Assembly: GCA_003644825.1 (NCBI GenBank)
Contig: QNDJ01000067.1
Span: 1 to 7,227, forward strand
Direction of reading: 5' to 3'
Origin: B21-G16 sp003644825 [NCBI: Candidatus Zhuqueibacterota bacterium]
Lineage (GTDB): Bacteria; SM23-31; B21-G16
DNA length: 7,227 nt
Shown here: positions 1 to 7,227 of the stretch, piece by piece
Layout: every line of letters starts with the position of its first letter
Position numbering within the stretch: position 1 is the first letter of the stretch
Program-made: the position numbers and the translations under genes
Notes under the pieces: generated by a model
Database searches by the model: none
What the model was told of the DNA's origin: nothing
What the model saw: only the letters and a program-made list of their open reading frames with translations

Positions 1-2
1 AT

Positions 3-357
3 GTCAAGATAATTTTTGTTCACAGGAGTAGGGTTTCATTTTCAGCACAATTTATTCAGAGTTTTTAAAGAAAGATATTTGAAATGAATTTAAATTAATA
101 TCCAATAAAGTTGCGAAGCAGATATTTCAAGAATCAGGAGAAAATTACTATCCTGTAATTATATAACACAGGAATTTACTGATTTCAGGTCTTACCTTGT
201 TAAAGTTGAATAAAGTAAGCTCGATGTTTTATATATTGTTGAGTATAATGAGGTCAGGTAAATACTCAACGGACAAAAAAGTCCAGGCTAAATATTTATA
301 GTATTATAGTTAAAATACTGATGTATTATGAAGCTGGAGACAGAAAGAGTAAGGTAA
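3..357 (+). pseudogene. Possible decayed ArsC / low-molecular-weight phosphatase-like gene (very tentative)
   Basis: No intact frame exists here, but four short translated shreds, in the right order and in shifting frames, recall thioredoxin-type arsenate reductase: VKIIFVHRSR at 3-32 (cf. KIIYFLCTGNS, with the catalytic Cys replaced by His), NKVAKQIFQESGEN at 104-145 (cf. NPNAVKAMKEVGID), KLDVLYIVEYNEVR at 217-258 (cf. ADLVVTLCGDAAD) and ETERVR at 340-354 plus flanks (cf. FFQRVRDEI). Their spacing (about 0, 33, 70 and 114 codons) is close to that family from memory. Stops at 66, 158 and 211 and several frame changes rule out a working gene. Each match is weak and I chose frames by eye, so chance resemblance is a serious alternative. 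Otherwise nothing recognisable is seen in this stretch. Confidence 0.2.
238..284. repeat. Two abutting hairpins (9-bp and 4-bp stems)
   Basis: GTTGAGTAT at 238-246 pairs perfectly with ATACTCAAC at 262-270, leaving a 15-nt loop. Directly next to it GGAC (271-274) pairs with GTCC (281-284) around a six-A loop. There is no T-tract on either side, so this is not a standard terminator. It may be a small structured RNA element, a protein-binding site, or a by-product of AT-rich decaying DNA. A weaker 6-bp stem follows (AGTATT 300-305 with AATACT 314-319). Confidence 0.4.
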
Positions 358-382
358 GCATATACTTATTATAATCCCCCTG

Positions 383-403
383 AAGGGATATTCTATATCC
401 CTT
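383..403. repeat. Perfect 9-bp hairpin, 3-nt loop
   Basis: AAGGGATAT at 383-391 and ATATCCCTT at 395-403 form a perfect 9-bp stem around TCT. Neither strand has the run of T needed for an intrinsic terminator. Five bases downstream lies TTGACA (408-413), a perfect -35 hexamer, directly followed by TATAAT (414-419), but the two are adjacent rather than 16-18 bp apart, so they do not form one normal promoter. Function unknown. Confidence 0.45.
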
Positions 404-454
404 AAATTTGACATATAATTTAAGGAAAAATGTAAGAGGTTATAACGGAATAAT

Positions 455-661
455 ATGTATTATAAAATTAAATGAGAACACCGATATTCCCAAGACTATC
501 GGGTTCAAAATATTCTTGTGGTATCTTCTATTTTGGCATCTGGAAAATATCTACTTGATAGAAAGATGCTATTGCTTTTGGAGTATTGGGCACTTTTCTT
601 ATTTTTAGATAAAAAGAAATTTTATAGAGAAAAAGTGAAAAAAATAGAATATTTACTTTGA
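455..661 (+). pseudogene. Short reading frame interrupted by TGA, unrecognised
   Basis: Starting at ATG 455 the frame reads MYYKIK, meets TGA at 473-475, then stays open for 61 codons to TGA 659-661 (…HRYSQDYRVQNILVVSSI… and a Lys/Leu-rich end). The segment NILVVSSI looks like the first beta strand of a receiver-like or Rossmann-like fold, which is only an impression. The overlapping frame 408-608 is also open but has an improbable composition (many Trp, Cys, Phe and Tyr). It could be a gene remnant, a tiny gene starting at ATG 566, or chance. No function is proposed. Confidence 0.18.
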
Positions 662-686
662 ATTTACAAAAAATTATGTATATTAA
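658..686 (+). promoter_or_regulatory. Candidate sigma-70 promoter for the ATPase gene
   Basis: TTGAAT (658-663) and TATTAA (681-686) are separated by 17 bp and lie about 50 bp ahead of the ATPase start. The -10 falls inside the inverted repeat at 671-709, so a protein bound there would block it. In DNA this AT-rich such matches are common, so the call is tentative. Confidence 0.27.
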
Positions 687-709
687 CATTATGCAGATAT
701 ACATAATTT
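671..709. repeat. 13-bp perfect inverted repeat, 13-nt spacer, upstream of ATPase gene
   Basis: AAATTATGTATAT at 671-683 is the exact reverse complement of ATATACATAATTT at 697-709; the spacer is 684-696. It ends 24 bp before the ATPase start codon and overlaps the candidate -10. It could be a two-half-site operator (half-site centres 26 bp apart) or a leader hairpin in the mRNA. There is no following T-tract, so it is not a terminator. The arms are almost all A/T, which raises the chance of accidental pairing, but 13 uninterrupted pairs is long. Confidence 0.6.
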
Positions 710-733
710 AAATCAACATAACTGGAGCTAATT

Positions 734-1867
734 ATGAAAAATCCTTTTGTTTATGGAGAAGCGGTTACAGGAGAAAATTTCGCTAACCGTACAGAAGAAA
801 TTGTAGAACTCGTCCGTGATCTCAGCAGTACCGAGCGCATATTTTTAATATCTCCACGAAGATATGGGAAAACATCTCTCATATTGAAGGCATTGGAGGA
901 GTTAAAGCTTAGAGGATTTTATACAGCCTACATAGATCTGTATAAAGTTACTTCCCTGCAAAATTTTCTGGAAATATATACCCGCGAAATTATCCGGGCT
1001 GTTGAATCGAAGATTGAAAAGATGTTTAATTTTTTAAAAAATACTCTACCTGGCCTTCGTCCCATTATTAGCCTGCAACCTGACGGCACGGCAACTATCG
1101 GCATTGAGCATATTCCCAAAACCGAGGATGTAATAAAATTCCTCGATCAGGTATATGATCTTCCCCAAAGGCTTGCTGAAAAAAAGAAGAAATCCTTTGT
1201 TATTGTATTTGATGAATTCCAGGAAATAATGAATTTAAATAGCGATTCCATCGAGAAAGCTATGCGGGCAAGCTTCCAACATCATGATAAAGTCGGGTAT
1301 TTATTTGCAGGTTCGAAAAGACATATTCTATATGATATGGTATCCAATCCTGATAGAGCCTTTTATAAAATGGGACGAATCATAAACCTTACCAAATTAG
1401 CCAGAGCAGAATTTATTGATTTTCTTTTACAGAATTTTGAAAAAACAGGATTCTCTATAGATAAAGAAACAATTTGCAGGATATTAGATGTGGTCGATGA
1501 TTATCCCTATAATGCACAATATTTATGTCACAAACTCTGGGATGATTTTTCACAAACAAAAAAAATAACAAAAGAAGATGTTGAACCAACTTTAGAGCGT
1601 CTTCTCAGCGAAAATACACCAATCTATATTTCAATCTGGGATGCACTCTCCCTGCATCAGCGCCGATTACTCTATGCTATTGCCCGTTCTGGGGGAAATT
1701 CTCTATTTTCTCAGGATTTTATCAGTGATTATAATCTTGGTAATTCATCCAGTGTACAAACTTCTGTCCGTCTTCTAATGAAAAGACAAATTCTTGATAA
1801 AGAAAAAAATACATATTTTATAACAGACATCTTTTTTAAAGAATGGATACAAAGAAAGATGGCATAA
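734..1867 (+). CDS. P-loop ATPase, prokaryotic AAA/STAND-like (ATPase_2 type)
   Basis: This encodes a 377-residue cytoplasmic protein that appears complete. The N-terminus NPFVYGEAVTGENFANR is the usual lead-in of this family. Walker A is SPRRYGKTS (40-48, Lys46/Thr47) and Walker B is FVIVFDE (155-161, Asp160/Glu161). FAGSKRH (191-197) fits the sensor region, and DYPYNAQYLCHKLW (256-269) corresponds to the family's conserved 'HP.Y.Q.LC..LW' helix. Residues ~305-377 look like a winged helix-turn-helix. ATG 734 is the only good start: GGAG at 724-727 sits 6 nt upstream and an in-frame TAA lies at 719-721. Members of this family occur in many copies in bacteria and archaea, and their targets are mostly unknown. 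No fused nuclease (DUF234-like) or TPR domain is present. The gene is monocistronic, convergent with the exporter operon, and flanked by decayed sequence on both sides. The fold assignment is firm; the biological role is not known. Confidence 0.93.
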   Translation: MKNPFVYGEAVTGENFANRTEEIVELVRDLSSTERIFLISPRRYGKTSLILKALEELKLRGFYTAYIDLYKVTSLQNFLEIYTREIIRAVESKIEKMFNFLKNTLPGLRPIISLQPDGTATIGIEHIPKTEDVIKFLDQVYDLPQRLAEKKKKSFVIVFDEFQEIMNLNSDSIEKAMRASFQHHDKVGYLFAGSKRHILYDMVSNPDRAFYKMGRIINLTKLARAEFIDFLLQNFEKTGFSIDKETICRILDVVDDYPYNAQYLCHKLWDDFSQTKKITKEDVEPTLERLLSENTPIYISIWDALSLHQRRLLYAIARSGGNSLFSQDFISDYNLGNSSSVQTSVRLLMKRQILDKEKNTYFITDIFFKEWIQRKMA

Positions 1868-1871
1868 TTAA

Positions 1872-2168
1872 ATATTTTTTCTCTTAGTTATTCCAGTAAT
1901 ATATATAATTCTCGCGATTAGCCTGAACTTCATTACAGGTTTTACAGGCTTTACCAGTATTGGTCATATTACATTTTCCTGTATTAGTGCATATACTTCT
2001 TCCTTACCGGGGTTAAGAGTGGATGTATCTCCATAAATCAGATTAGAGTATTTTTTACCAACGGATTTGGTCTAATTATCGGTTAATCCTCTATCTAAAA
2101 AAATAAAAGAAATTAATAGAAATAGAATTTTTCTTAATAGAGCAAAATACAGAGAGTATAATTATAAT
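1872..2168 (+). pseudogene. livM: Relic of a LivM-type branched-chain amino-acid ABC permease
   Basis: Immediately after the ATPase stop the plus strand encodes, without a start codon, a 54-codon stretch (1872-2033) containing IYIILAISLNFITGFTGFTS and IGHITFSCISAYTSSL. This matches the hallmark LivM segment 'iYallAlgLNl..GytG..slGhaaF..iGAYt.aLL'. The 'LPGLRV' after it (2004-2021) looks like the later 'lpaLRLrG' motif, implying an internal deletion of roughly 25-30 codons. After TAA at 2034, the +2-shifted frame gives FFTNGFGLIIG (2051-2083), like the 'lTgGtdGl' motif. The first frame then resumes with NPLSKKIKEINRNRI (2085-2129) and a Tyr at the expected spacing, like 'SPFGRaLkAIReNEiaA…YK'. 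The intact protein would be about 300 residues of inner-membrane permease. No other liv gene is intact here. The first block is convincing; the later ones are supportive only. Confidence 0.72.
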
Positions 2169-2277
2169 ATACCAATCAAGGATATATGTCTGAAACAGGC
2201 AGAATTACCTTCGAAGATAATGCAAAAAAGATATTGAATAAAATTAACATAAAGTTTTCTGAAGCTCTTTTTTTAAA
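2169..2277. other. Gene-free tail between the livM relic and the permease stop
   Basis: No intact gene or clear terminator is seen. ATG 2186 follows AAGGAT (2179-2184) and begins MSETGRITFED, which faintly resembles the 'p.sGrItf.G' segment of LivG/LivF ATPases and could be a further liv relic, but the frame then runs antisense into the permease gene. At 2204-2221 there is an 18-bp near-palindrome (ATTACCTTC/GAAGATAAT, one mismatched pair). It has no T-run on either side. Both converging genes lack an obvious intrinsic terminator here. Confidence 0.3.
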
Positions 2278-3513
2278 TTATTCATATCTTAATGAATCAA
2301 TCGGGTCAAGCTCTGCTGCTTTTTTTGCTGGAAGTATTCCAAATACCAGGCCAACACCAACAGATACAGAAAAAGCAAGAGCAAGAACATACATATTAAC
2401 TATTGTTCTCCATTTTGCATAGAAAGCTATTGCTCTTGTCATACTATAACCAAGAAAAATACCTATAATACCACCGGCAAAACTAATAACAATAGCCTCT
2501 ATAATAAACTGCCCAAGAATATCTTTTTTAGTGGCACCAACTGCTCTTCTGATGCCAATTTCTCTTGTTCTTTCAAGCACTGTTGCTAACATAATATTCA
2601 TAATACCAATACCACCAACAAGAAGAGAAATTCCTGCGATAGCACCCATTACAATATTAAAAATCTGCTGGGTTTTTTGACTCTGCCTCATTAAAGCTTC
2701 AGGGATAATAATTTGAAAATCTGGAACATTGTTGTGTCTTCTTCTCATTATATTCCTGATGATGTTAGCAGCTTCGGTAATTTTTTTAGTATCAATGACT
2801 TTTGCCGTTATCTGGTCAATTTCACTTGCGAGGGGGTCAACTTCAAATCTTTTAAATGAAGCTGTAATCGGTATATAAACATCCTGATTAAGATTTCTTG
2901 TTTTTATACTTCCTGGTTTACCGGCAGGCATACTTTTATCTTCCATCACACCTATAACAGTAAACCATATATCACCTATTTTTATTCTTTTGCCAATAGG
3001 GTCCTCAAACCTGAAAAGGTCTTTTTTTACAGCACCGCCAAGAACACAAACCTTTCTTCGCTCCTGAAGGTCATAATAAGTCAAAAAAGAACCCTTTTCA
3101 ACATTAAAATTGAGAACCTTTGAATATTCAGGAGTTGTTCCAATAACAGCACAGGATGTTGTTCTATTCTTATAGCTTGCAGTCATATTTCTTTCAGTTT
3201 GAGGTGTAGCTACCTCTACAAGGGGACATATTGCCATTATAGATCGAGCATCTGCATAGGTTAAACCTCTTGAAAAGTTGGTTCTGGATTGCGTTAAATC
3301 CTGGTCTTCCATCTGGAAATCCTGAATTAATATATTATTTATACCTAATAATTTTATTTGTTCAAGAGCTTCCTGTTTTGCACCCTCTCCAATTGAAAGC
3401 ATCGCTATTACTGCAGCTACACCAAAAATTATACCAAGCATCGTTAAAAATGAACGAAGCTTATGAGCCCTCAAACCTCCAATGCCAGTAAAAAAACTTT
3501 CTGCAAAATTCAT
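2278..3513 (-). CDS. MacB/FtsX-type ABC exporter permease (no ATPase domain)
   Basis: This 411-residue inner-membrane permease is the third gene of the operon. An N-terminal LRAHKLRSFLTMLGIIFGVAAV (14-35) leads into TM1 (~21-41). It is followed by a large periplasmic MacB_PCD domain (~42-280), then the FtsX domain with TM2 (~284-309), TM3 (~333-356) and TM4 (~373-394). GGIGIMNIMLATVLERTREI (300-319) and GIRRAVGATKKDIL (320-333) form the family's conserved cytoplasmic coupling region, and LPAKKAAELDPIDSLRYE (394-411) is the typical end. The family works as a dimer that converts ATP hydrolysis into periplasmic movement, pushing substrates through an adaptor and outer-membrane channel. Unlike E. 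coli MacB it has no fused ABC domain, so it needs a separate ATPase, which the window does not contain. An AGGT ribosome-binding site lies 6 nt upstream (3520-3523), 21 nt after the preceding stop. Substrate unknown: antibiotics, lipoproteins or peptides are all possible. Confidence 0.94.
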   Translation of the reverse strand: MNFAESFFTGIGGLRAHKLRSFLTMLGIIFGVAAVIAMLSIGEGAKQEALEQIKLLGINNILIQDFQMEDQDLTQSRTNFSRGLTYADARSIMAICPLVEVATPQTERNMTASYKNRTTSCAVIGTTPEYSKVLNFNVEKGSFLTYYDLQERRKVCVLGGAVKKDLFRFEDPIGKRIKIGDIWFTVIGVMEDKSMPAGKPGSIKTRNLNQDVYIPITASFKRFEVDPLASEIDQITAKVIDTKKITEAANIIRNIMRRRHNNVPDFQIIIPEALMRQSQKTQQIFNIVMGAIAGISLLVGGIGIMNIMLATVLERTREIGIRRAVGATKKDILGQFIIEAIVISFAGGIIGIFLGYSMTRAIAFYAKWRTIVNMYVLALAFSVSVGVGLVFGILPAKKAAELDPIDSLRYE

Positions 3514-3534
3514 ATCTTTACCTGTAATTATTTT

Positions 3535-4899
3535 CTATCTTCTTAAAAATTTTCTTATAGCTCTTATATCCGTACCCTGTTTTGAAGAAGGCGATGTAGG
3601 TTTTTGCTTCTTTTCTTTTATTTCTGCTCCAAACTCTTCCAGTTTAATAGTTGGATTTCTCAAAGCAACTTTATCTCCCTCTTTTAAACCTTCAGAAATA
3701 ATAACATAATCATCATTACTTTTACCTGTTTTTACTTCAACTTTTTTGTAAGAATCTTCAACAAGATACATAACAGTTTTTCCTTCTTCTTCAAAAACCG
3801 ACTCAAGAGGAACATATAGAGCGGTATCTATCTTATCTAAAATAATATCTACAGTAGCTGACATACCCGGTTTTAATAAAGGATGATTTTTCTCATCAAT
3901 TGTAATAATAACATCAAAAACTTTAACATTAGACCCATACTCTCTCCTTGCAAGATAAGCAATATCAGTAACAGTTCCAGTAAATTCAACATTCTGAAAA
4001 GCATCGAGCCGGATAATGGCTTTTTGCCCTTTCTTAACTCTCCTTATATCAATCTCATTTACCTGAGTTTTAACCTGCATAATTTCAAGATTTGGTAAAT
4101 CAATCAATGGTTGACGCCTGTGAGGTGTATCACCGACCTGGATTTTTGCTCTTGTTCCACTCCGATAGTTTTCTCTGTAAACTACCAATCCATCATTGGG
4201 TGCTCTTACAGTAAGCCTCTCTTTTTCAGCTTTAGCTTTTTCAAGGTCTTTTTTTGCATTTTCAATCTTCAAAAGAGCAGCATTAAGGTTAACTTTATTT
4301 ACAATTCTCTGGTTCTTAATGTTATTTTCCTGCTTCTTAAGGCTGATTTGAGCGTTTTTAAAGTTCAGTTCTTCCATCTGTTTTTTTGTATCGGCTTCAA
4401 ATTTCATCTGTTCAAGCCTCAATTTGCTCAGTTCATAGTTATTTTTGGTAGTTTCAAGATTGCTTAATAGAGTTGCCATCTGTGATTCCTGATTTGCTTT
4501 GAGTTTTTCATAATCTTCCTGAGCCTGTTGAAGTGTCGATTCTAATGTTTCTATTCTCGTGTCAAGTTCACTTGTATCAAACTGAATGAGAACATCACCC
4601 TTTTTAACAGGTTTTCCTTCTTCTGCAAGATATATAATCTGTAAATTTCCTCTTACATCACTTGGAACATAAATTGTTGTAGACTCTTTCGCCATCAGTT
4701 CTCCATGTTCTGAAATACTTATTATAAAAGGTCCCTTTACAACCGTATACGTTGCTATATCAGGGGTACTGCTTTTTACATTAATCAATATTATCCCTAT
4801 AATAATGACTATTATACCTGAAAAACTTATCAGGAATTTTTTACCTTTATAATCAATTTTAAGGATTTTTTCTTTTACTATATTTATATAATTTTTCAT
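3535..4899 (-). CDS. HlyD/MacA-family periplasmic adaptor (second of pair)
   Basis: This is a 454-residue membrane-fusion protein. There is a single N-terminal membrane anchor (~22-41). The first half of the lipoyl-like domain is at ~74-108 (NLQIIYLAEEGKPVKKGDVL, 85-104). A long alpha-helical hairpin/coiled coil spans ~108-229. The lipoyl domain is closed by LTVRAPNDGLVVY (229-241). A beta-barrel follows at ~272-355 (VNEIDIRRVKKGQKA; LLKPGMSATV), then a membrane-proximal domain at ~358-415 (YVPLESVFEEEGK … ISEGLKEGDKVAL) and a short Lys/Arg/Ser-rich tail. Such adaptors form hexameric tubes linking the permease to an outer-membrane channel. The long hairpin is the part that would meet a TolC-like protein, which is not encoded here. 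TGAGGT (4909-4914) lies 9 nt before the ATG. The gene is 37 nt downstream of its paralogue and 21 nt upstream of the permease, so all three are almost certainly co-transcribed. Confidence 0.94.
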   Translation of the reverse strand: MKNYINIVKEKILKIDYKGKKFLISFSGIIVIIIGIILINVKSSTPDIATYTVVKGPFIISISEHGELMAKESTTIYVPSDVRGNLQIIYLAEEGKPVKKGDVLIQFDTSELDTRIETLESTLQQAQEDYEKLKANQESQMATLLSNLETTKNNYELSKLRLEQMKFEADTKKQMEELNFKNAQISLKKQENNIKNQRIVNKVNLNAALLKIENAKKDLEKAKAEKERLTVRAPNDGLVVYRENYRSGTRAKIQVGDTPHRRQPLIDLPNLEIMQVKTQVNEIDIRRVKKGQKAIIRLDAFQNVEFTGTVTDIAYLARREYGSNVKVFDVIITIDEKNHPLLKPGMSATVDIILDKIDTALYVPLESVFEEEGKTVMYLVEDSYKKVEVKTGKSNDDYVIISEGLKEGDKVALRNPTIKLEEFGAEIKEKKQKPTSPSSKQGTDIRAIRKFLRR

Positions 4900-4908
4900 A
4901 ATTATTAT

Positions 4909-4914
4909 ACCTCA
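4909..4914 (-). promoter_or_regulatory. Ribosome-binding site of the second adaptor
   Basis: TGAGGT on the minus strand lies 9 nt ahead of the ATG at 4899 and supports this start. The 37-nt gap to the preceding stop is otherwise A/T and shows no terminator, which is consistent with one transcript. Confidence 0.6.
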
Positions 4915-4936
4915 TATTTAATTTTTCCCCGATATT

Positions 4937-6700
4937 TTAACGATTATTCCTCTGCCTCTGGTTCCTCAATTTAACCATCATTTCTCTAAAAAACTTATTC
5001 CTTTTATTATTATCGGTTGCAAGAGAAGGATCTTTCTTTAGTCTTTTTTCATATTCTTTTTTTATTTCCGGGTTCTGCAGTAATCTTTTTTCAAATACTG
5101 CCCTCTGCTGAGGTGTCATATTATTAATATTAAACTGTCTTCTCCTGCTCCCGAATGTTCCTTCTTTTGTTCCCAGGTATTTCATTGCCATCTCCTGAAA
5201 AAATCTCATACGCTTTTCAATACTGGTTTTGAGTTCAGGGTCCTCTTTAACTCTTTTATCATATTCAGCTTTAATTTTAGGATTTTGAAGTAATCTCTGT
5301 GCATATTTTTCTAACATTTCTTCAGGAGTTGCAATTTCTTTAGGTTTATTTACTCTGTCGGTTTTTTCATCAGAATAGGCTTCACTTGAACGAAGATTCA
5401 TAAATTTTTCGATAATTGCCTGCCTTTGAGCAAGTTCAATTCTCTTTTTTTCAGCTGTTCCAAGCATCTGGGCAGTTCCAGTTGGGTCCTTCAAAGCAAT
5501 AACTTCTCCTTCTTTAAGATTTTCTTTAATTTCAATATAGTTTAAACCTTTCTCACCAATTTTAACAAATCTCGGTCTAAAACTTCCTTCTTTAACAAAT
5601 ACAACTGGTTTATCATCTATTTCATAAACTGCCCCGACCGGTACATATACAACATCTTTTAGTTTTTTAAGTGCTATTTCCACTCTTGCGGTCATTCCCG
5701 GTCTGAAGTAGGGGCTATTCTTTTCATCAACAACCACTTCAACGTTGAACCGTCTAACATTTGTTTCAAGGTCCTCAACAATAGCTGAAATAGAGTTAAT
5801 TGTTCCATTAAACTCAATTTCGGGGTACGCATCCAGTATAACTTTTGCCTTCTGTCCAACTTTAAGTCTACCAACATCTACTTCATTTACCATCAATCTA
5901 ACTTTCATCTCATAAGTATCTGGCAGGTCTATTATAGGCATACCTTCATAAACAACATTACCATCCTCCACTTTTTTAAAAGTTCTACTTGACCAATCCC
6001 AGTATTCATGATACACCACTAATCCCTCAATGGGTGCACATACCGTTAACTCCTTCAATTTCTCTTTCCAGTATTCCAGTTTTACACTGTCATCCTTTAC
6101 TTTAAGCTGGGCATTACTAAGCTCAACACTATTTATAATTTTTTGATTTTTTATTTTTTCCTTTTGCTCCTCAAGGTTCAATTTTGCATTTTTAAACTGG
6201 AGTTCACCTTCCTTTTTTTTAGCATCCGACTCATATTTCAAACTATACAGGTATAATTCAGCCAGCTTATATGTGTTTTCCATAACTTTCAGGTCAGAAT
6301 ATAATTCATCCATCTTTGATTCATGTTGAGCTATCACTTTTTTAAGGTCTTCTCTATGCTGTTGAAGAGATTTTTCATAAGTTTCAATCCTGGATTCAAT
6401 CTGTTTTGTATCAAACCTGATTAAAGTATCCCCTTTATTAACAATAGTTCCTTCAGGAATTAAATAAATTATTTGTAATGTTGATTTTGTGCGTGTCGGT
6501 GCACAAATAATCCTTGAACGAGTCGCAAATACATCTCCACTCTCTACAAGATTTATTACAAGGTCTCCTCTTCGAGAAACTCCAACAGGAATAACTTCTC
6601 GGTTCACCTTTTTATTCGATGTTATTATAATTATAATAATAAAAATCATAACCACTGATATTATAACTATATTCCTTTTCCTGAAGAAAAATTGTCTCAT
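4937..6700 (-). CDS. HlyD/MacA-family periplasmic adaptor with duplicated C-terminal extension
   Basis: This 587-residue protein is the first gene of the operon. A basic N-terminus precedes a very Ile-rich anchor (~10-28). The lipoyl half STLQIIYLIPEGTIVNKGDT is at 73-92, the coiled-coil hairpin spans ~97-217, and the lipoyl domain closes at LTVCAPIEGLVVY (218-230). The beta-barrel is at ~262-345 (VNEVDVGRLKVGQKA; YFRPGMTARV) and the membrane-proximal domain at ~350-405 (YVPVGAVYEIDDK; ENLKEGEVIAL). Up to there it is clearly a paralogue of the next gene, sharing for example IETxExxLQQ and the FKNA…KNQ region. It then continues about 180 residues beyond the usual end: a charged linker (~411-457) and two copies of a 50-residue helical module (461-510 and 531-580), ending Arg/Asn-rich. 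The extension is highly charged and probably periplasmic. No function is known to me. The start has only a weak AGAG upstream, but no better ATG fits the anchor. Confidence 0.93.
   Translation of the reverse strand: MRQFFFRKRNIVIISVVMIFIIIIIITSNKKVNREVIPVGVSRRGDLVINLVESGDVFATRSRIICAPTRTKSTLQIIYLIPEGTIVNKGDTLIRFDTKQIESRIETYEKSLQQHREDLKKVIAQHESKMDELYSDLKVMENTYKLAELYLYSLKYESDAKKKEGELQFKNAKLNLEEQKEKIKNQKIINSVELSNAQLKVKDDSVKLEYWKEKLKELTVCAPIEGLVVYHEYWDWSSRTFKKVEDGNVVYEGMPIIDLPDTYEMKVRLMVNEVDVGRLKVGQKAKVILDAYPEIEFNGTINSISAIVEDLETNVRRFNVEVVVDEKNSPYFRPGMTARVEIALKKLKDVVYVPVGAVYEIDDKPVVFVKEGSFRPRFVKIGEKGLNYIEIKENLKEGEVIALKDPTGTAQMLGTAEKKRIELAQRQAIIEKFMNLRSSEAYSDEKTDRVNKPKEIATPEEMLEKYAQRLLQNPKIKAEYDKRVKEDPELKTSIEKRMRFFQEMAMKYLGTKEGTFGSRRRQFNINNMTPQQRAVFEKRLLQNPEIKKEYEKRLKKDPSLATDNNKRNKFFREMMVKLRNQRQRNNR
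4961..5320 (-). repeat. Two-copy protein repeat (210-bp period) in the first adaptor's C-terminus
   Basis: Residues 461-510 (5171-5320) and 531-580 (4961-5110) align without gaps at an offset of exactly 70 residues. The shared pattern is RLLQNPxIKxEYxKRxKxDP, then L, KR, FF and EM at matching places. Each copy is preceded by a TP (458-459 and 529-530). The strong helical propensity and alternating charge suggest a helical pair. The copies differ at DNA level, so the duplication is old and kept by selection rather than a recent slippage event. Confidence 0.85.
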
Positions 6701-6794
6701 TTTATTTACTCTATAACTATGAAAGTTTATCTTTCTATTTCGTTAAATATATACAATTTTTTTAAATTTTCATTCAAAAAATAAAGTCATTGTT

Positions 6795-6822
6795 AAGATA
6801 AGTTTTTAAAATAGAGGGTCAA
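6795..6822 (-). promoter_or_regulatory. Candidate promoter of the exporter operon
   Basis: On the minus strand TTGACC (6817-6822) and TATCTT (6795-6800) are 16 bp apart, about 95 bp ahead of the first adaptor. Alternatives are a TATAAT at 6885-6890 without a good -35, and a weaker TTGAAT/TATATA pair nearer the gene. The placement of the palindrome next to the -35 favours this one, but the A/T-rich context makes any choice uncertain. The leader between this and the start codon is about 90 nt of A/T-rich sequence with no gene. Confidence 0.3.
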
Positions 6823-6837
6823 CAGGATTAAATCCTG
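6823..6837. promoter_or_regulatory. 15-bp palindrome, operator-like
   Basis: CAGGATT and AATCCTG are perfect inverted 7-mers around a single A, abutting the candidate -35 at 6817-6822. It has more G and C than its surroundings. Position and symmetry suit the binding site of a dimeric regulator (for example TetR- or MarR-like) controlling the exporter operon. No regulator gene is in the window. It could also be a small hairpin without function. Confidence 0.4.
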
Positions 6838-6912
6838 AATCAATAGTCTATTCAAAGTATGAAACTGAAAAGGTCCGATATACTATTATAAACAAATATC
6901 AAAAATTCAAAT

Positions 6913-6941
6913 AAAAAACCCGACAGATAAAACAGTCGGGC
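6913..6941 (-). terminator. Intrinsic terminator of the secreted-protein gene
   Basis: Read on the minus strand, CCCGAC (6940-6935) pairs with GTCGGG (6924-6919) across a 10-nt loop and is followed by six T (6918-6913). It lies 27 bp after the stop of the gene at 6968. It separates that gene from the exporter operon, which therefore needs its own promoter. On the plus strand the run after the stem is only CTTT, so the signal is mainly one-way. Confidence 0.9.
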
Positions 6942-6967
6942 TTTAAAAACATCCTCTCAAAACATAC

Positions 6968-7227
6968 TTATTTGATAAAAAACATTTTACTGGTTTTAAT
7001 AAAATTCCCCGATTTAAAACGATAGAAATATATACCTGATGCAACCACATTACCTGATGAATCTTTTCCATCCCAGATAAAAGAATTAACACCAGCATTA
7101 AAACTCCCAGAAAATAATGTTTTTATCAATTGACCAGAAGAATTATAAATATCTAAAGTTCCTACCATTGGTTCAGATAATTCTACACTGATAGTTGTTG
7201 AAGGATTAAATGGATTAGGATAATTCC
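6968..7227 (-). CDS. C-terminal end of a secreted protein with FlgD-like/type IX sorting domain (partial)
   Basis: Only the last 85 complete codons are in the window; the gene continues past the right edge. The frame is open from the edge and starts NYPNPFNPSTTISVELSE, the signature start of the type A C-terminal sorting domain (a FlgD-like Ig fold). It goes on with LDIYNSSGQLIKTL, FNAGVNSFIWDGKDSSGN and VASGIYFYRFKSGNF, and ends KMFFIK. In organisms with a type IX (Por) system this domain directs export across the outer membrane and is usually removed at the cell surface. The preceding part, which would tell the function (protease, adhesin, glycosidase and so on), is not seen. The Met at 7168 is internal, not a start. 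The strong terminator at 6913-6941 follows. Confidence 0.93.
   Translation of the reverse strand, partial: NYPNPFNPSTTISVELSEPMVGTLDIYNSSGQLIKTLFSGSFNAGVNSFIWDGKDSSGNVVASGIYFYRFKSGNFIKTSKMFFIK

Follow-up and report, generated by a model that had tools for sequence, protein, structure and literature searches.

Why should a HlyD/MacA-type periplasmic adaptor continue for some 180 residues beyond its membrane-proximal domain, and what could a duplicated module at the end of such a tail contribute to an export pump? These questions are raised by adaptor A, which is encoded in a stretch of 7,227 nucleotides from B21-G16 sp003644825 (contig QNDJ01000067.1, positions 1 to 7,227, analysed as a whole and hereafter called the window). 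The features of the pump locus are as follows.

4937..6700, minus strand: adaptor A, 587 aa, a HlyD/MacA-type periplasmic adaptor with a duplicated tail (ORF, Pfam, NCBIfam, Foldseek)
6617..6679, minus strand: N-terminal membrane-anchor helix of adaptor A, residues 8-28 (AlphaFold2 helix and hydrophobic sequence)
5687..6538, minus strand: adaptor A body, HlyD_D23 match over residues 55-338 (Pfam; model strands), with two long hairpin helices at residues 99-156 and 159-217 (AlphaFold2 model)
5390..5458, minus strand: helix past the membrane-proximal domain, residues 415-437 (AlphaFold2 model; orthologue alignment)
5330..5392, minus strand: linker, residues 437-457, predicted disordered, pLDDT under 50
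5162..5326, minus strand: module copy 1, residues 459-513, 76.0 bits with a family profile drawn from 26 copies, both copies of adaptor A included
5135..5170, minus strand: inter-copy linker, residues 511-522, predicted disordered
4952..5116, minus strand: module copy 2, residues 529-583, 76.4 bits with the same profile
3535..4899, minus strand: adaptor B, 454 aa, HlyD/MacA-type, without the module
2278..3513, minus strand: MacB-type permease of 411 aa that lacks an ATPase domain (PF12704, 7.5e-46; PF02687, 1.1e-20)

We analysed the body of adaptor A using Pfam, NCBIfam and Foldseek. Matches above the cut-offs were obtained with PF16576 (2.7e-12, score 46.9 against a cut-off of 30), PF13437 (3.7e-11, score 44.1 against 22.2) and TIGR01730 (114.9 bits against 94.9), no Peptidase_M14 match was found by Pfam, and the closest solved fold was MacA of MacAB-TolC (9qgy_G, 6.2e-24; 5nik_D, 2.7e-22). 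With these domains, a predicted hairpin and membrane-proximal fold, and a permease gene adjoining, adaptor A is a HlyD/MacA-type adaptor. In the AlphaFold2 model of the full-length protein (10 sequences, mean pLDDT 82) the last membrane-proximal strand ended at residue 402, leaving the extension of about 180 residues that the initial annotation had reported, and with a pTM of 0.45 the model does not fix the placement of this tail. The helix at residues 415-437 corresponds to a similar aligned stretch in the orthologues L003 and L004, which lie on the same contigs as the module records L013 and L016.

Adaptor B gave no match with the module profile. Two distinct MacA-like adaptors, A tailed and B untailed, accompany one MacB permease both in the window (2278-6700) and at the orthologous locus (L016:3340-9357), and this pairing on a single permease suggests a mixed adaptor ring. 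The window permease aligned to the NCBIfam MacB model only from position 255 onward, no ABC ATPase was present among the window ORFs of 80 aa or more, and no gene for an outer-membrane factor lies within the window. Two further coding regions were observed away from the pump genes: positions 6968-7225 (minus strand) encode the C-terminus of a protein that matches FlgD_ig (2e-14) and Por_Secre_tail (8.1e-7), a sorting tail resembling those of type IX secretion, and positions 734-1867 (plus strand) encode an ATPase_2-type P-loop protein with a weak, sub-cut-off MarR-like match at its C-terminus.

The best ungapped internal repeat within residues 410-587 paired residues 466-507 with 536-577 at an offset of 70, with 24 of 42 positions identical and a BLOSUM62 score of 130, and none of 1000 shuffles scored as high (maximum 65). 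The two gap-free C-terminal copies described in the initial annotation were thus confirmed; its limits for them (4961-5320) were slightly off the profile limits of 5162-5326 and 4952-5116. The DNA of the two copies is identical at only 79 of 126 bases, and the repeat is therefore an old duplication, with an assembly artefact and recent slippage both ruled out as its origin.

The module is about 55 residues long, and the tail was predicted to consist of two helical modules with disordered linkers. In the model, copy 1 contained helices at residues 459-470, 474-486, 489-492 and 494-509 (pLDDT about 76-91) and copy 2 at 530-540, 544-556, 558-561 and 564-586 (pLDDT about 88-96). When copy 2 was folded in isolation, helices were predicted at positions 3-13, 17-29 and 37-58 with a mean pLDDT of 84, and the module is probably a three-helix mini-domain that folds autonomously. 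In this prediction its helices are capped by an NP and a DP motif. The 26-copy alignment showed regular hydrophobic positions (536, 540, 546, 550, 554, 560, 570 and 571) together with the conserved residues D557-P558, K566, F570 and E573; the hydrophobic positions, together with the DP pair, are consistent with a small buried core and capped helices.

We then compared the module with known families and folds. Pfam, run on the tail alone with E values up to 10, returned 10 matches, all below cut-off, the best being CotH at 0.0071. When the 26 copies were scanned singly, no Pfam model reached its cut-off, and among the best 25 of 37 families none gathered more than four of the 26 copies (lowest E listed, 0.0055); NCBIfam likewise gave no match at cut-off and no family with more than two copies. 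Among the NCBIfam matches listed for eight whole proteins, at most 25 each for two of these, all lay in the adaptor body. The fold search with the isolated module gave three Foldseek matches, the best at E 8.5, and VIA Z scores of at most 2.9, and such unconvincing matches do not demonstrate a new fold. No match was obtained by tblastn with one module (L015) against 72,556 plasmid records, and the module was not the subject of any title or abstract start found in the open literature. For residues 450-587, the comparison with well-known families left nothing beyond a borderline likeness to GerD. Fourteen M14 carboxypeptidases of a periplasmic group did align via an element at their C-terminus that is colinear with the module (hhalign 97.2%, E 3.9e-11, 45 columns); since module profiles had served to find the M14 rows, this comparison is not independent and shows similarity, not common ancestry. 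A PDB profile search with the M14 group found three chains, none of which covered the element. The description of the module as undescribed holds for Pfam and NCBIfam, and is to be qualified in that these carboxypeptidases contain a similar element, likewise without a name. With the same hhalign query, 11 LTXXQ sequences (Spy/CpxP, PF07813) gave 0.7% over 6 columns, and the earlier suggestion of a likeness to the LTxxQ motif was rejected. A CusF-like metallochaperone domain, a small beta-barrel, was also ruled out, as the module is predicted to be all-helical.

The occurrence of the module was surveyed using profiles of the repeat, which found it on other adaptors and detected the similar M14 element. 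In the source genome a further single copy forms the end of an RND adaptor encoded on contig C34, with 46% identity across the matched region; the RND_mfp model detected 11 adaptor ORFs above cut-off and two fragments below it in this genome, and two of the 11 carry the module. Three of six genomes of the same class (G000, G002 and G004) had the module at E below 1e-20, and a fourth gave only a match at chance level. The orthologues in G002 and G004 (records L016 and L013) have one copy each, and, since the orthologues carry a single copy, the duplication rather than the module is particular to the lineage of adaptor A. A local oddity, considered at the outset, is ruled out for the module itself by these orthologues and by its distant relatives. 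A scan of genome contigs with five copies gave 12 loci: the two orthologues, RND adaptors in KSB1, in an 'Acidobacteria' MAG and in six Latescibacterota, one M14 carboxypeptidase in Ignavibacteria, and a seventh Latescibacterota-group locus (titled Gemmatimonadota) with its frame cut by masked bases. The weak matches L009 and L012 (E 0.025 and 0.048) were judged to be chance, as was L005 (E 0.0018), by eye a sugar-transferase-like ORF.

Wider surveys were made at thresholds that differed between them (0.001, 1e-4 and 1e-5), and the host proteins were typed by a script from short sequence motifs and then by eye. The module was matched in 16 of 82 genomes of the KSB1 group (12 adaptors, three M14 proteins and a contig-edge fragment of 98 residues that has the same tail) and in 21 of 64 genomes of the Latescibacterota group (20 adaptors plus the masked-frame locus). 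In the phylum of L014 matches occurred in 33 of 149 genomes, and the 30 located ones, counted apart from four others, comprise eight adaptors (among them a contig-edge fragment of 49 residues) and 22 M14 proteins (one a short frame judged from its tail); in the phylum of L024 the matches, in 5 of 198 genomes, were all M14. A broad sample yielded matches in 8 of 386 genomes, consisting of three class members, four adaptors (three from one genus, and one apparently from an already counted genome) and one M14 protein. The module is thus optional on adaptors, with most of the surveyed genomes lacking it. The source genome also contains a paralogous operon (C143; L120, G000, 857-4938) of two adaptors and a MacB-like permease, in which the first adaptor shares 35% identity with adaptor A and scored 0.3 bits with the module profile. 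At its C-end this adaptor carries additional sequence of another kind.

Both ABC and RND adaptors carry the module. The MacA-like ABC adaptors are those of the window, L013 and L016, and the L016 operon runs in the order adaptor A with the module, adaptor B, MacB permease and TolC-like outer-membrane factor (PF02321). Each of the nine RND neighbourhoods (L105, L107-L109 and L121-L125) has a long RND-type permease after the adaptor. The eight permeases scanned, from six of these loci, were all of the AcrB type (PF00873); the permeases of L108, L121 and L122 were assigned by length and N-terminus only. One permease type, with an N-terminus close to MKIV-x-FSI-x-RPVT, was present at all nine loci, adjoining the adaptor in L109 and L121-L125 and standing second in L105, L107 and L108. 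Four loci (L105, L107, L108 and L124) have two consecutive permeases, an arrangement reminiscent of MdtBC-type mixed pumps.

The placement of the module was analysed in 49 adaptor ORFs, 45 of them distinct when compared over the last 250 residues. Two module-free B adaptors were included as a contrast, whereas all others had entered the set by match, so that the scan shows placement and not frequency. One or two copies were present in 47 of the 49 ORFs (43 of the 45 distinct), and the last copy always ended 9 residues or fewer from the C-end. Two copies occurred in 6 of the 43 distinct module-bearing adaptors, at spacings of 70 (adaptor A), 45-47 (L035, L039, L040 and L043) and 159 residues (L059). 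In the set with spacings of 45-47 the profile matches of the two copies share 8-9 residues, and the last helix of copy 1 seems to merge into the first helix of copy 2. A tree of single modules separated the four first copies of this set (support 0.976) from its second copies (0.942 for three of them, 0.472 for all four), and this grouping apart suggests that a single ancient duplication took place and that both of its products were retained; the position of copy 1 of adaptor A had weak support. The stretch between body and module measured 27-186 residues in 26 of 41 adaptors, 14 of the 41 being without a marker and L059, whose first copy falls within the stretch, being excluded for that reason. 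Linker length varies among the Latescibacterota, and the module is nearly invariant. Their linkers (L017-L023 and L059) are long, Gly/Arg/Gln-rich and widely varying in length, with RGQMGQGG-like repeats.

Taken together, these results support well a conserved module, predicted to be folded and linked to adaptors, and the adaptors that carry it are ordinary ones with an apparently undescribed domain. What the module does is a more tentative matter, and we propose, with a probability of roughly 0.37, that the tail is a tethered docking arm which aids assembly or holding of the pump. A flexible linker would carry the module from the membrane-proximal end of adaptor A and let it reach out from the adaptor ring, where it would bind a further component of the pump or of the envelope. 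Such docking would help to assemble or hold the pump, and the presence of two copies would increase avidity or link two sites. We infer both the docking function and a shared partner. Because the module occurs on MacB-type ABC and RND adaptors, a partner common to the two pump types is likely, the candidates being the outer-membrane factor, a further protomer of the adaptor, or lipid, and for the same reason the permease surface is a less likely partner. In an earlier form of this argument the periplasmic parts of MacB and RND permeases were taken to be unrelated; this was contradicted by, and dropped in the light of, a passage in PMC8277102, according to which the lower periplasmic domain of MacB is structurally homologous to RND porter domains. 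With that homology one mode of permease binding could serve both pump types, which weakens the argument for a shared partner, which would fail if the module had arisen separately on the two pump types. With much the same reserve as for the docking arm, the module may be seen more broadly as an unnamed periplasmic docking domain, single or in tandem, that moves between unrelated ABC (MacB-type) and RND export machines in several little-studied phyla, enables the adaptor ring to capture a shared component and has a relative in periplasmic carboxypeptidases.

It is unlikely, in our view, that the module instead captures cargo. Such a role has a precedent in SilB, according to part of a review (PMC4446572), and E. 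coli MacA is reported in a section of PMC5985334 to co-purify with LPS; the likeness to the C-terminal element of M14 carboxypeptidases would suit a peptide cargo, and the tail of adaptor A is basic, with a net charge of +16 over 131 residues. However, the net charge is not conserved, spanning -5 to +16 among 27 adaptors, so that a purely electrostatic role is unlikely. Metal binding is also unlikely, since Cys and His are never among the commonest residues in any module column and Met is found at hydrophobic positions only (commonest at 574, in 14 of 26 copies). Moreover, cargo capture would require ABC and RND pumps to share their cargo.

A slightly poorer prospect is self-association of adaptor protomers into a ring or cluster, as is thought for the helical lipoprotein GerD with germinant receptors. 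GerD was the best PDB profile match to the module (4o8w, borderline at E 0.0049) and the most frequent family in the NCBIfam scan (NF040801, 2 of 26 copies, best 0.015), and PF17898 matched one of 26 copies at 0.014, these matches involving the same sequences and not being independent. The tail, present on A and absent from B in the window operon, could also set A-A contacts. Yet all of the GerD scores are near chance level, and GerD was absent from the Foldseek and VIA listings for the module, although with a helical model of 60 residues such an absence is not decisive. Binding to peptidoglycan, by which the pump would be anchored in the wall, is improbable. Some M14 relatives act on wall peptides, and the flexible linker and periplasmic location would suit such an anchor. 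A 2026 review (PMC13328181) also states, in one of its passages, that AcrA protomers may contact peptidoglycan. Against this, no wall-binding family was among the Pfam matches of the tail alone or among those listed in the copy-by-copy scan (25 of 37 families), and the tail exits near the inner membrane, so that long linkers would be required, whereas the shortest measured is 27 residues. Finally, a dispensable C-terminal appendage without a specific role, which the absence of the module from most surveyed genomes and from the paralogous C143 operon might suggest, is very improbable given that dN was lower than dS in 15 of 15 module pairs from six Latescibacterota sequences, that the module is conserved across distant groups and that double copies are retained.

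Adaptor A and its module can be set against several named systems. MacA of MacAB-TolC shares with adaptor A the HlyD_D23/HlyD_3 domains, the long hairpin, the membrane-proximal strands, the N-terminal anchor and a MacB neighbour; the MacA chains matched in the PDB, however, have 340 residues or fewer, whereas adaptor A continues for about 180 residues beyond the membrane-proximal domain, and the window differs further in having two adaptor genes per permease and a permease without a fused ATPase. According to part of PMC4158417, EmrA-type adaptors have C-terminal extensions, 19 and 41 residues long, that are not conserved, and a passage of PMC6975555 only makes mention of extensions left unmodelled. 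Spy/CpxP resembles the module in being helical and periplasmic and in the TP..Q start of the module copies, and differs at the level of profile likeness. GerD is also helical, but forms a trimeric superhelical rope in Bacillus spores, as described in part of PMC11841064, and its scores with the module are borderline. In the M14 carboxypeptidases the element (EF..[KR]L..D..F....RL.FFY) is a fixed part of the enzyme and is followed by a YPVxR stretch, whereas the module of adaptors is a tethered extension. The M14 group with a module-like end and the YPVxR stretch comprises L024, L041, L046, L047 and L078-L104.

A functional C-terminal extension on an adaptor has a precedent in SilB of Cupriavidus metallidurans, which, in the part of PMC4446572 concerned with it, has a C-terminal CusF-like metallochaperone domain, an extra adaptor domain with a demonstrated job. 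Both proteins have an extra C-terminal domain on an efflux adaptor, but that of SilB is a metal-binding beta-barrel, whereas the module of adaptor A is predicted to be all-helical and has no conserved Cys or His. The module is small, separable and sometimes duplicated, and its role is therefore testable by deletion and pull-down. If our reading is true, the module would be a second, all-helical kind of such domain, conserved across distant phyla on both ABC and RND adaptors, and would point to a common assembly or capture step.
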